From the NCBI GenBank assembly GCA_030641315.1, contig DAOWHR010000254.1, forward strand, positions 1 to 34,540: 34,540 nucleotides of DNA, in the 5' to 3' direction. Of the stretch, positions 12,461 through 33,547 are shown one piece after another. The notes beneath the pieces were generated by a model. The model ran no database searches. It had not been told where the DNA came from and saw only the letters and a program-made list of their open reading frames with translations. This DNA is from Anaerohalosphaeraceae bacterium (GTDB lineage: Bacteria > Planctomycetota > Phycisphaerae > Sedimentisphaerales > Anaerohalosphaeraceae). The position numbers and the translations under genes are program-made. The stretch's first letter is position 1. Every line of letters begins with the position of its first letter.

Positions 12461-13855
12461 TCAATTTTGTGTTAACAGTTTTTGGGGCCGTTTACGAAAC
12501 GCCGAGAAATATTTGGCCAACGAGATTGAAGACTTTTCTTTGGCTGGGTCGTATCCTCGTATTTTGAAACTTTTCACCCTGCCATAGTACCCTATATTGA
12601 TGACGAAGGGGTAGATAATATTAACCAGTCCGCACGGCTGGGTGATGCGTCTTAACATCCTTTTGGCAATGGCAGTACGTGAATAGAATTTGCGAATCAT
12701 CCAGTCGGAACCTGCCTGGAGTTGTTCTGTCGTCATCTGTTTGGGTTGGAAAACAACATGGCGGTAGTCATAATTTTCAAGATCGTCATCAATGATACGG
12801 TGTTTCATCTGGTCATGAAGGACAGTGCCTGGCAAGGGTGTCATTATTGCAAGCTGTATCGCGTCTATGCCAATTTTGTTTAACATATTCAGTGTTGAAC
12901 TGAATACTGTGACATCATCATTGTCAAAACCAACGATTATTCCTGATTCGACCATCATTCCAAAGCTGTGGAACCTTGCGATCGCATCGTGATAGTGCTG
13001 GGCGGGTTTGATGGCTTTGTCCTGCATTGCGAGTGTAGTATCGTTGAACGTTTCAAGGCCAACGAAAACGCCGATACAGCCGGATTCCTTCATAGCAATG
13101 AGAAGCTCCCGGTCATCGGCCAGTTCGACCGAGGCCTGTGTGCCCCATTGCTTTTTGAGAGGCGTTAGTGCCTTGAATAACTCTATGGCGTATTCTCTGT
13201 TCTGGGTAAGGTTGTCGTCAACAAACATGAAGAACTTTTCTTTGAATGAACTTATTTCGGCAACTACGTCTTCTATTGGCCTGGTGAAGTGTCTGGCTTT
13301 GTGAAAAGCACTGATCGAACAGAAATGACACTTGTTCTTACAGCCGACTGTGGCGAATGTTGAGTTTGCCGTTATGTAATTTTTGCTGCTGACCAGATGC
13401 CTTGGCAGTGTTTTTGGTACAACAGGTTCCGGGGCACCGTGGTAAATATTTTTGAGCTTGCCGTTTTTGACATCCTCAATGATTTTCTGCCATGCGCCTG
13501 AGGCTGACCCGATGACTATCGCGTCAGGGTGTATTGAGGCCTGCTGCGGGTTCAGGGTGGGGTAGAAACCGCCGAAGACAACGGGCACGCCTTTGGCCTT
13601 GAAATGCCTTGCGATCTCATTTGCACGGGGCAATGTCGCAGTCATTACGGTTACGCCGACAAGATCGAACTTAATGTCTGAAGGAATATCGTCGAGTTGT
13701 TCGTCGATCATTGTTATTTCTGCGTCATCTGGTGAAAATTTAGCGACTGAAAGCAGCGACAACATTGAAAAGCGAAAGGGTTTGCCGTTAAAGAATTTTC
13801 GTTTGCCGATCTTTTTCCAGTTTCCTGAAGCCGGTGATATTAGCAGAATCTTCAT
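12461..13855 (-). CDS. B12-binding-domain radical SAM protein
   Basis: This 464-residue enzyme has an N-terminal cobalamin-binding Rossmann-like domain (about 1-140, with DLVGVTVMTATLPRA and VPVVFGGFYPTLNP) and a radical SAM barrel beginning at the cluster motif C-KNK-C-HF-C (near residue 170). That spacing, CX3CX2C, ligates the SAM-binding 4Fe-4S cluster. The following DDNLTQNREYAIELF and GVFVGLETFND elements are typical of the BchE/P-methylase class. No DXHXXG B12 motif is evident, so cobalamin is inferred from fold. Members methylate or rearrange carbons in hopanoids, phosphonates, peptides and chlorins. Here its neighbours on the same strand are an envelope protein and lipid enzymes, so a lipid substrate is a reasonable guess but unproven. 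AAGGAG precedes the ATG. Confidence 0.88.
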   Translation of the reverse strand: MKILLISPASGNWKKIGKRKFFNGKPFRFSMLSLLSVAKFSPDDAEITMIDEQLDDIPSDIKFDLVGVTVMTATLPRANEIARHFKAKGVPVVFGGFYPTLNPQQASIHPDAIVIGSASGAWQKIIEDVKNGKLKNIYHGAPEPVVPKTLPRHLVSSKNYITANSTFATVGCKNKCHFCSISAFHKARHFTRPIEDVVAEISSFKEKFFMFVDDNLTQNREYAIELFKALTPLKKQWGTQASVELADDRELLIAMKESGCIGVFVGLETFNDTTLAMQDKAIKPAQHYHDAIARFHSFGMMVESGIIVGFDNDDVTVFSSTLNMLNKIGIDAIQLAIMTPLPGTVLHDQMKHRIIDDDLENYDYRHVVFQPKQMTTEQLQAGSDWMIRKFYSRTAIAKRMLRRITQPCGLVNIIYPFVINIGYYGRVKSFKIRGYDPAKEKSSISLAKYFSAFRKRPQKLLTQN

Positions 13856-29089: not shown

Positions 29090-30465
29090 TATTTCACTAT
29101 TTCGCTCCTGATGGATGCTACGATGTCGATATATTTTTTTGCTGCCGCTTCAGTTTCAGTCTCTACGATGACTCGCATTACCGGTTCGGTGTTGCTGGTA
29201 CGGAGATGGACCCAGCCGTCTTCAAAATCGAATCTGCAGCCGTCAAGTGTATTTATCTTCGCCTGAGGAAATGCCAGTTTGGCTTTTTCGATTATAGCAT
29301 CAGCTGTTGCCTTGTCAGCAGCGAACTTTGCTTTGTCGACATAATAGCATCCCACCTGATCTACCAACTGACTAACGGTTTTGCCGGTCTCGGCCATAAG
29401 TTCAAGCACAAGAGCCATTCCAACCAAGCTATCACGTACAGGGCCGACTCTCAGGTCGATTATTCCGCCGTTGCCTTCTCCGCCTATTACGCATTTGTTG
29501 TTTACCATGGCTTGGGCTACATTTGCCTCGCCTACCGCAGTTCGCAGAACATTGCAGCCAGCTCTTTCTGCAACGTCATCTATCATTCTTGAAGTTGAGA
29601 GATTTGCAGCAGCGTTTCCTTTGGTTTTGCTGAATACGTGCATCGCAGCCATCGCCAGGGTATATTCCTCGCCGATATAGGTGCCCTTCTGGTCGACTAT
29701 GGCAAGTCTGTCGGCGTCCGGGTCCTGTGCGAAACCGATGTCGGCTCCCACTTCGTTCATTTTGTCGCAGAGACTGACAAGGTTGTCTTTAGTGGGTTCG
29801 GGAGTATGTGCGAAGATGCCTGTCGGGTCGATGTTGATGCCGATAACTTCGCAGCCGAACCGCTCGAGCAGCATTTCACCAATCCGGCCCCCTGCTCCGT
29901 TTACGCTGTCAAGAACTACTTTGAATCTCTTAGCGATGATAGTTTCCGGGTTGACGATGGCACGGACCTTGTCGATATGCACTTCATTTGTTTTGTCAGT
30001 ACAAGCGATAGAGCCGCAATCTACAGAGCCAACGGTGTCGAAATCTTTATCGAAATAGCACTGGCGAATCTTCTGGGCCATATCTGCTGGCGGAGCGATG
30101 CCATTGCCGAGTAAAAGCTTGATCCCGTTGTACGGAACCGGGTTGTGCGATGCGGTTATCACTACGCCGCCTGCGCAACCGAGGTGTGTGATCATAACCC
30201 CAACAGAAGGTGTCGGGACAATACCAAGATCAACGACATCGATTCCTGCCGAGCAAAGACCGCTTGCAACGGCAGACAAAATCATCGGGCCGGAGACACG
30301 GGAATCTCTGCCTATACAGACCTTGAGTTTTTCGTCCTGATCCCCTGCCGAGCGTTTGAGGAATGTTCCGAATGCACAACCATAATCGGCGGCAATTGCC
30401 GAGGTAAGATTTTCACCAATTATTCCGCGCATTCCGCTAATGCTGATAATAAGCTCTTCGGGCAT
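29089..30465 (-). CDS. glmM: Phosphohexomutase, probably phosphoglucosamine mutase
   Basis: This 458-residue alpha-D-phosphohexomutase has all four active-site loops: the phosphoserine loop VVITASHNPVPYNGIK (near residue 103), the Mg loop QDPDADRLAIVD (near 248), the sugar loop in GGEGNGGII (near 325) and the phosphate loop RTSNTEPVMRVI near the C-terminus. GEGNGG with the short length points to GlmM, which makes GlcN-1-P for UDP-GlcNAc, rather than phosphomannomutase, but the split is not certain by eye. The UAP1-type pyrophosphorylase in the window fits the same path. It follows the PEGA lipoprotein by 68 bp and precedes the CDF gene with a 1-bp overlap. Confidence 0.85.
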   Translation of the reverse strand: MPEELIISISGMRGIIGENLTSAIAADYGCAFGTFLKRSAGDQDEKLKVCIGRDSRVSGPMILSAVASGLCSAGIDVVDLGIVPTPSVGVMITHLGCAGGVVITASHNPVPYNGIKLLLGNGIAPPADMAQKIRQCYFDKDFDTVGSVDCGSIACTDKTNEVHIDKVRAIVNPETIIAKRFKVVLDSVNGAGGRIGEMLLERFGCEVIGINIDPTGIFAHTPEPTKDNLVSLCDKMNEVGADIGFAQDPDADRLAIVDQKGTYIGEEYTLAMAAMHVFSKTKGNAAANLSTSRMIDDVAERAGCNVLRTAVGEANVAQAMVNNKCVIGGEGNGGIIDLRVGPVRDSLVGMALVLELMAETGKTVSQLVDQVGCYYVDKAKFAADKATADAIIEKAKLAFPQAKINTLDGCRFDFEDGWVHLRTSNTEPVMRVIVETETEAAAKKYIDIVASIRSEIVK

Positions 30466-30980: not shown

Positions 30981-31174
30981 TTTTATCCCTCAATGCATAA
31001 CTGTAACGGTAAGGACGTATAAATTCGACGGTCATGTAAACAAATTACCACTATTCGGAATGTAAATCAACTATGCAATTGACATTATATGCCTTAGATT
31101 GTAAGTTATTGGAACGTTTTTGTTCGCATTGCGCGTTAATCAGGTCAGATAATACATTTATTACGGTTGGTTGT

Positions 31175-33190
31175 ATGAAGATTTCTATTGATTGGTTAAG
31201 TGATTACGTTGAGTTTGATAAGAGTGGTCCTGAGATAGCTGATATTCTGAGCGATCTTGGATTTCCTCTTGAGGGTATTGAAGAGGTTTACGGCGATACC
31301 GTTATTGATATTGAAGTATCAAGCAATCGCGGTGACTGCCTAAGTCATATTGGTGTAGCTCGGGAAGTTGCGGCTTTTCTGGGTAAGGAGCTTAAACTAC
31401 CAAAATTTGAACTGCCTGAAGATGAGACGCAGGCATCTGATAAGGTTAATATTCAAATCGACGAACCTGAACTTTGCGGGCGGTATACTGCAAGGGTAAT
31501 CATCGGGGCCAAGATCGGGCCGAGTCCTGAGTGGATGAGCAATCGGCTTGAGTCTGTCGGGGTGCGCAGCGTTAATAATGTTGTTGACGCAACTAACTAC
31601 GCGATGATGGAGACCGGGCAGCCACCACACGCATTTGACTGTGACAAAATATCGGGGGGCAAGATCATTGTTCGCAAAGCAGTCAAGGGCGAACGGATTG
31701 TCAGCATCGATGAGACGAAGTGTGAACTCGAAGACGATATGCTTGTGATCGCAGATGAGAACTGCCCGGTAGCAATTGCCGGGGTTATGGGCGGGCCGGA
31801 TACGGAGATAAGCGAGTCCACGAAGGCAATTCTTCTGGAGGAAGCACAGTTCAACCCGGTCACTGTTAGAAGAACAGGCAGAAGGCTTGGAATCAGTTCC
31901 GAAGCATCTTTCAGATTTGAAAGGTTCGTTGACACTGAAATGATTGACTGGGCATCTAAACGAACCGCGGATCTGATAGTGCAGGTCGCAGGCGGAACAG
32001 TTGCTAAAGGCGTGGTAGACGTTTATCCATGCAAGAGCGAATCTGAGACCGTGGGGATGAGGTTCTCTCGGATGAAGCATCTGCTCGGCATCGATATTGC
32101 TGTTGAAGATGTTGTCCGTATCTTTGCAGGACTTGGATTTAATCCTGAGGTCAAAAGTGACGATCTTATCGTCGCTACGGTCCCGACATGGAGACATGAT
32201 ATATATCGCGAGGTTGACCTGATCGAGGAAGTGATAAGAAGTTATGGTTTAAGCAATATTCCCGTCGAGCAGAAACTTAATATTGAAGTTATTCCGGTCG
32301 ATGAGCGTGAGAAAGTTTCCGGGGATATAAGAACATATCTTAACAGCTGCGGATTCTACGAAACTATCAATGTTACTTTTGTCGATGATGTCGCAGGCAG
32401 TATATTTAACTCGGCTAAGGATGGGGGAAATATCTGTGTAAAAGACGACTCGCGGAAGTCTGCGAATCTGCTGAGGCAGAGTTTGCTCGGTTCACTTCTT
32501 GGAGTGATGAAAAGTAATCTTAACGCACGCAATACCCCGTGCAGGATATTTGAAATTTCAAATACTTTCAAGCCATCGTCTGACAGTCAACTGCCGTTAG
32601 AGCGAACTAAAGTTGCACTTATGTACGACGGTGATTTCCGGGAACTGAAAGGCGCGATTGAAGGCCTTGTTCGAGCAATGAACAAGGATGTTGAATTTTT
32701 GGTGAAACCTGCTGACATAAATTGGTATATGCCTGGAGGAGAAATCTACTGCGGCGATAAACTAATCGGTTCGTGCGGTGTGATACCTTCCGATGTTGCC
32801 GGGAAATTTGATATTAAGGGTGTTGAAATTGTTGCCGCTGAGCTGGACTTTGAAGAACTGCTTTCACTTTCCGGGGCAGTGACGACGTTTAAACCTATAC
32901 CAAGATTCCCATCAATTACCCGTGATCTGTCGCTGATACTGGATGAAGCTGTTTCATGGAGCGACATTGAAAACGCAGTCAGACAAAAGGGTCCGGCTGA
33001 ACTTGAGGAAGTTCAGTTTACGGGTATTTATCGCGGTAAACCCATCGAAAACGGCAAAAAGAGTGTGACCGCTTCGCTGCGGTTCCGTGATGAAGACGGT
33101 ACCCTAAGGCATGAAGTCGTTGATGGTTTTGAGGCTGAAATCCTGAATGAACTTAAAAGTACGCTTAAGGCTAAGCTCCGAACAATTTAA
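31175..33190 (+). CDS. pheT: Phenylalanine--tRNA ligase beta subunit, short form
   Basis: PheT pairs with PheS to charge tRNA-Phe. The product from ATG 31175 is 671 residues, about 120 shorter than typical bacterial PheT. The missing part is the EMAP/tRNA-binding OB domain that normally lies between the N-terminal KISIDWLSDYV and DIEVSSNRGDCLS. The B3/B4 editing region (GRYTARVI, SVNNVVDATNYAMMETGQPPHAFD), the B5 domain (WRHDIYREVDLIEEV), the catalytic-like core and a C-terminal FDX-ACB anticodon-binding domain (about 575-671, FPSITRDLSLIL) are present. An upstream in-frame ATG at 31073 would add 34 unsupported residues. pheS is not adjacent, unlike in many bacteria. Confidence 0.94.
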   Translation: MKISIDWLSDYVEFDKSGPEIADILSDLGFPLEGIEEVYGDTVIDIEVSSNRGDCLSHIGVAREVAAFLGKELKLPKFELPEDETQASDKVNIQIDEPELCGRYTARVIIGAKIGPSPEWMSNRLESVGVRSVNNVVDATNYAMMETGQPPHAFDCDKISGGKIIVRKAVKGERIVSIDETKCELEDDMLVIADENCPVAIAGVMGGPDTEISESTKAILLEEAQFNPVTVRRTGRRLGISSEASFRFERFVDTEMIDWASKRTADLIVQVAGGTVAKGVVDVYPCKSESETVGMRFSRMKHLLGIDIAVEDVVRIFAGLGFNPEVKSDDLIVATVPTWRHDIYREVDLIEEVIRSYGLSNIPVEQKLNIEVIPVDEREKVSGDIRTYLNSCGFYETINVTFVDDVAGSIFNSAKDGGNICVKDDSRKSANLLRQSLLGSLLGVMKSNLNARNTPCRIFEISNTFKPSSDSQLPLERTKVALMYDGDFRELKGAIEGLVRAMNKDVEFLVKPADINWYMPGGEIYCGDKLIGSCGVIPSDVAGKFDIKGVEIVAAELDFEELLSLSGAVTTFKPIPRFPSITRDLSLILDEAVSWSDIENAVRQKGPAELEEVQFTGIYRGKPIENGKKSVTASLRFRDEDGTLRHEVVDGFEAEILNELKSTLKAKLRTI

Positions 33191-33287: not shown

Positions 33288-33316
33288 TTGATTTCGTTTG
33301 CCGAATATGTTATAAG
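33288..33316 (+). promoter_or_regulatory. Promoter of the 6S-like RNA
   Basis: TTGATT (33288-33293), a 17-bp spacer and TATAAG (33311-33316). The predicted start is near 33323, just ahead of the rod-like RNA's closing stem at 33332. Confidence 0.6.
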
Positions 33317-33322
33317 ATAATA

Positions 33323-33547
33323 GTAGGCTGACCCCTGCGTAGAACGAGAGAGCGTGGTATTGAAAGAACCGATACGCCCTTCCGGGGAGGTCGGACCTGA
33401 CGGATCGCAAAACGCCCGCTTGCGGGACTTTCGGACGTCTGCAACGACCGCCCACTTTGAATTTAGGGTTTCTTTCATGATCGCTTTTACGTCTGTTGCG
33501 GAGGTTTCTACTAACAAAAAGATCTGTCTTTGGACAGATCTTTTTTT
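33323..33547 (+). ncRNA. Rod-shaped small RNA, 6S-RNA-like candidate
   Basis: Between a promoter and a strong terminator lies an RNA that pairs end to end. The pairs in order are CCCCTGCG (33332-33339) with TGCGGAGG (33497-33504), AGAGCG (33349-33354) with CGCTTT (33482-33487), TGAAAGAACC (33361-33370) with GGGTTTCTTTCA (33466-33477), and GGGAGGTCG (33385-33393) with CGACCGCCC (33445-33453), each with at most one mismatch or bulge. Between the last two is an internal bubble of 14 and 12 nt, about 49-62 and 132-143 nt from the start. A GC-rich hairpin (33415-33426) fills the end. Size, rod shape and bubble position match 6S RNA, which binds sigma-70 RNA polymerase; sequence identity to a known 6S was not checked. 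Confidence 0.5.
33516..33547 (+). terminator. Rho-independent terminator of the 6S-like RNA
   Basis: AAAAAGATCTGTC, loop TTTG and GACAGATCTTTTTTT form a long perfect stem flanked by A and T runs, so it could also act on the minus strand, although lon reads away from it there only after its own stop at 33621. Confidence 0.92.

Follow-up and report, generated by a model that had tools for sequence, protein, structure and literature searches.

6S RNA is a widespread bacterial RNA that mimics an open promoter and restrains RNA polymerase at growth arrest. In E. coli, it is encoded by ssrS (RF00013 type) and forms a rod with a central bubble and an apical hairpin. Its pRNA starts at U44, and an extended hairpin in the 3' side of the bubble forms upon release (PMC8876501). 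B. subtilis 6S-1 is, in general terms, also a rod with a central bubble, and its pRNA starts at C40 with GTP. The extended 3'-bubble hairpin does not form in B. subtilis 6S-1, the release of which does not need it (PMC8876501). Ms1 of Actinobacteria, again a rod with a central bubble, is ~300 nt long, carries additional 5' and 3' terminal hairpins, and associates with core polymerase (PMC9130861). Among planctomycetes, 6S RNA was not found in Thermogutta (PMC5673643), and an earlier screen, as cited in the same paper, gave it as absent from Pirellula and Rhodopirellula.

A scan of the window (the whole stretch of DNA that was analyzed, 34,540 nucleotides) with 4227 Rfam families returned two matches, one to tRNA and one to RF00013, the 6S RNA family. 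The RF00013 match extends over the full model and scores 55.9 bits against a curated gathering cutoff of 46.4, with an E value of 1.1e-8 for the search of the entire window with the full set of 4227 families. Within the 3.9-Mb genome, this is the only match to the 6S model (E = 2.9e-10). At the terminator, STnc370, SpF36, and microRNA families match weakly, below their cutoffs; these matches were rejected as resemblances to a hairpin plus T-run. The core and the parts of its fold are as follows.

33329-33508, + strand: 6S/SsrS RNA core, 180 nt (Rfam RF00013, full model, 1-187 of 187)
33330-33347, + strand: closing stem (helix 1), 5' strand, with its partner at 33489-33506
33361-33370, + strand: helix P2 (downstream duplex), 5' strand, with its partner at 33467-33477; predicted pRNA template (Rfam structure)
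33371-33384, + strand: central bubble, 5' side, 14 nt (Rfam structure)
33373, + strand: predicted template U for the pRNA start, homologous to E. coli 6S U44 (aligned CCGAU, sequence homology only)
33385-33453, + strand: apical (internal) arm with a conserved terminal hairpin at ~33415-33426 (Rfam structure)
33454-33466, + strand: central bubble, 3' side, 13 nt; counterpart of the E. coli 6S -10-like region (Rfam structure; role from PMC8876501)

When the Rfam structure is mapped onto the window, 45 of the 49 pairs are standard, which agrees with the rod-like RNA and central bubble of the original prediction. The internal loop begins 42 nt into the core, near the ~50 nt from the start that had been proposed. 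Its dimensions had been given as 14 x 12 nt; the 14-nt side is correct, while the other side has 13 nt rather than 12 nt in the Rfam structure. The folding energy of the rod alone is weak evidence (z = -1.80, with 5 of 200 shuffles as stable), and the rod and terminator together give a folding z of -3.41. What establishes this RNA as real is the match to the covariance model together with covariation, not folding energy.

Covariation was analyzed in a 50-copy alignment made from sequence alone, and the structure that was tested came from Rfam and is independent of the alignment. Standard pairs occupy 78.3% of cells compared with 73.7% in shuffles, two-sided changes are present at 33 of 49 pairs compared with 23.4 in shuffles, and the covariation score is 0.238 compared with 0.151. 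None of 500 shuffles equaled the observed pairing, two-sided-change count, or covariation score; such comparisons should not be read as probabilities, because kinship among sequences can by itself push values above those of shuffles. The case for covariation rests on a control in which partners were slid by 1 to 3 columns and on the spread of changes over the helices. Sliding, which keeps relatedness, reduced pairing from 78% to 39 to 46% and the score to 0.055 to 0.104. Helix 1 is paired in 86.3% of cells, with two-sided changes at 12 of its 17 pairs, and the corresponding pairing values are 84.4% for helix P2 and 98.5% for helix 6, the apical hairpin. Helices 4 and 5, which make up the apical arm below its tip, fit the Rfam register poorly (53% and 45% of cells paired), and for this region RNAalifold gives a shifted neighboring register with many two-sided changes. 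At two pairs that hardly vary otherwise, the window sequence itself carries a compensatory change on both sides: U-A has become A-U (13/190), and U-G has become A-U (15/188).

The transcription signals and the probable ends of the transcript are located as follows.

33288-33293 (-35, TTGATT) and 33311-33316 (-10, TATAAG), + strand: promoter with a 17-nt spacer (sigma-70-like sequence motif)
33322-33512, + strand: probable mature 6S RNA, ~191 nt (ends placed by -10 spacing and outer closing pairs)
33322-33326 (AGTAG) and 33508-33512 (CTACT), + strand: outer closing pairs (sequence)
33516-33545, + strand: intrinsic terminator, 13-bp hairpin with a TTTG loop and a T-run at 33541-33547 (fold and sequence)

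Promoter elements and a strong terminator had both been predicted here, and both were found in place. Most of the 50 relatives have a similar promoter equally far upstream, with a best-fit mean of 8.96 out of 12 compared with 7.55 for mononucleotide shuffles. The pairing of a copy's own 5' and 3' flanks exceeds that of swapped flanks (mean of 5.52 versus 4.96), and none of 200 controls equaled it. The span from promoter to terminator permits an RNA of at most ~226 nt (33322-33547). A generic promoter and terminator scan detected neither the promoter nor the terminator of the 6S locus. The scanner overlooked the promoter because its rules want T as the last base of the -10 element, which is TATAAG in the window, and it probably overlooked the terminator because the T-run sits within the stem. 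With an A-run on the 5' arm, the terminator hairpin is also terminator-like for lon on the - strand, the transcripts of which it could end.

The window RNA has the size, rod, central bubble, apical hairpin, and CCGAU pRNA start of E. coli ssrS, the sequence of which was verified against annotated genomes before use. Covariance-model matches between the two are reciprocal, in that a lineage model (R1) built from the 50 copies matches E. coli ssrS from end to end (E = 2.3e-9). The A and U of the CCGAU around E. coli U44 are invariant in 50 of 50 copies, and the predicted pRNA start is AUCGGUUC in the window compared with AUCGGCUC in E. coli. The base homologous to C40 of B. subtilis 6S-1 is a U in the window, and a start with ATP is therefore predicted, as in E. 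coli.

By homology with these systems, the RNA would be transcribed from its own housekeeping promoter and would fold into a rod, the central bubble of which would mimic the melted promoter strand. It would bind polymerase carrying the main sigma factor, so that promoter use would be blocked at nutrient shortage. When nucleotides return, polymerase would use the bubble and helix P2 as the template for a short pRNA, initiated at U33373 and predicted to begin 5'-AUCGGUUCUUUCAA..., and this copying would open helix P2 and free the enzyme. In contrast to E. coli, no extended release hairpin is predicted in the 3' side of the window bubble (-1.5 kcal/mol, compared with -13.4 kcal/mol for E. coli), and when such a hairpin was sought in all copies it was strong in only a few (L009 and L012). 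Because the segment folds at just -1.5 kcal/mol, release of the window RNA is probably independent of a hairpin of this kind, as is release of B. subtilis 6S-1. The missing hairpin is not disqualifying, as it is a gammaproteobacterial feature that is neither universal nor family-defining.

While E. coli ssrS has as neighbors zapA and the 5-formyltetrahydrofolate cyclo-ligase gene (fau/ygfA), the upstream neighbor in the window is pheT, on the same strand as the 6S gene (TIGR00472, 549.8 bits, above cutoff). The convergent downstream neighbor is lon, represented by its 3' part (TIGR00763, 388.3 bits); as the gene is truncated by the window, it scores short of the full-length cutoff. These models confirm the location between pheT and lon that had been assigned from the sequence. 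Within the available flank, pheT is upstream on the same strand in 27 of the 50 copies, including that of the window; at several of the remaining loci, the flank is too short or another gene is adjacent. Among 38 named pheT loci, a complete 6S RNA follows pheT on the same strand at 27, and at 1 more the 6S RNA is cut by a contig end; this set was selected through pheT and shares some genomes with the 50-copy set. The named relatives reached in this way are mostly metagenome bins of Sedimentisphaerales and other Phycisphaerae, and the window is assigned to that group on this basis. A conserved lon neighbor was considered and rejected, since lon was seen solely in the window and at one other locus (L015, in G005), with flanks that are short for many loci. 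We consider it improbable, though worth stating, that the order of pheT and the 6S gene is functional, with read-through or shared control that might tie the supply of 6S RNA to expression of phenylalanyl-tRNA synthetase. If true, this coupling would connect aminoacylation with global transcription, and in the 6S literature examined we found no description of such a connection via 6S RNA.

In the window and in many relatives, pheT lies just ahead of the element on the same strand, as would be expected if the element belonged to the pheT 3' untranslated region and acted in cis on the pheT message. The element has a promoter of its own at a conserved position and the full 6S structure, and some copies in the lineage lack pheT in the available flank or lie at a varying distance from it, all of which makes this reading extremely unlikely. 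It is very unlikely that the RNA is a 6S-shaped RNA that binds core polymerase rather than holoenzyme, as Ms1 does. The rod and bubble are common to Ms1 (PMC9130861), but at ~190 nt, within a span that permits no more than ~226 nt, the window RNA does not reach the size of Ms1 with its additional terminal hairpins; the end-to-end RF00013 match and the predicted E. coli-like pRNA start argue against it as well.

The weak folding energy of the rod and the presence of overlapping open frames of 71 aa (+ strand) and 80 aa (- strand) could be taken to mean that there is no RNA gene here at all, only a chance hairpin or a coding region. This is contradicted by the strong covariation, and we regard its probability as negligible. 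Conserved coding in one frame had been named beforehand as an observation that would count against an RNA; no frame is stop-free in all 50 copies (the best is stop-free in 13 of 50), copy lengths fall in all three classes modulo 3, and coding over the 6S locus was therefore rejected. Two further checks that had been proposed, the Rfam 6S model and covariation across homologues, both came out in favor of 6S RNA. Based on the RF00013 score above the gathering cutoff, the covariation, and the lack of a conserved frame, we conclude with near certainty that a Phycisphaerae (Sedimentisphaerales-like) planctomycete carries its only 6S RNA gene (ssrS) at this locus. Of the two possibilities named in the original prediction, a divergent 6S RNA and a new class, the first holds and the second is not supported; the divergence appears mild, as judged by the margin of the RF00013 score over its cutoff. 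The window 6S RNA is a clear yet ordinary planctomycete member of the 6S family and is of low surprise.

Among 59 genomes of the same family and order, RF00013 finds one copy each in 51, and R1 adds four that RF00013 missed (G001, G021, G036, and G056), for a total of 55 by the two models. The other four (G009, G028, G031, and G034) have no 6S match with either RF00013 or R1. R1 matches are present in 79 of 120 genomes of a class sample, and RF00013 matches are present in 86 of 199 genomes across a phylum sample, 53 of them above the curated cutoff; the numbers for distant genomes are minimum values, as filtering was stricter there. 6S RNA is thus the rule in the order to which the window belongs and is present in many other sampled planctomycetes. 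The main use of the annotation is to correct the impression of 6S absence left by the reports on Pirellula, Rhodopirellula, and Thermogutta (PMC5673643), and the 50-copy alignment could underpin an improved planctomycete 6S model.

Several genomes in the wider sample differ from this pattern. Four members of one genus in the same class (G060, G092, G152, and G226), which are 98 to 100% complete, have no 6S RNA detectable by RF00013 or the lineage model, and either true loss or strong divergence is possible in this genus. Genome G295 has two separate lineage-model matches (C129:49846-50003 and C84:12700-12858), possibly a 6S duplication or a mixed bin. Some matches in distant Phycisphaerae of the class sample (e.g., in G284, G265, G294, and G334) span ~230 to 240 nt, compared with the usual ~180 nt, which suggests that they are 6S RNAs with expansions.

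Three further observations concern other genes in the window. The pheT frame (31073-33190, + strand) opens at 31073, but in many relatives the match begins at residue 35 (MKISIDWL...), which puts the probable true start of pheT near 31175. A tRNA-Lys (ttt) is called by ARAGORN at 12878-12963 (- strand), inside a 464-aa radical SAM/B12-type frame (12461-13855, - strand); the Rfam tRNA model gives no support to this call, which is probably false. The phosphoglucosamine mutase at 29092-30465 (- strand) matches the archaeal-type GlmM model TIGR03990 with 478 bits (cutoff, 439), while the bacterial GlmM model scores below its own cutoff.
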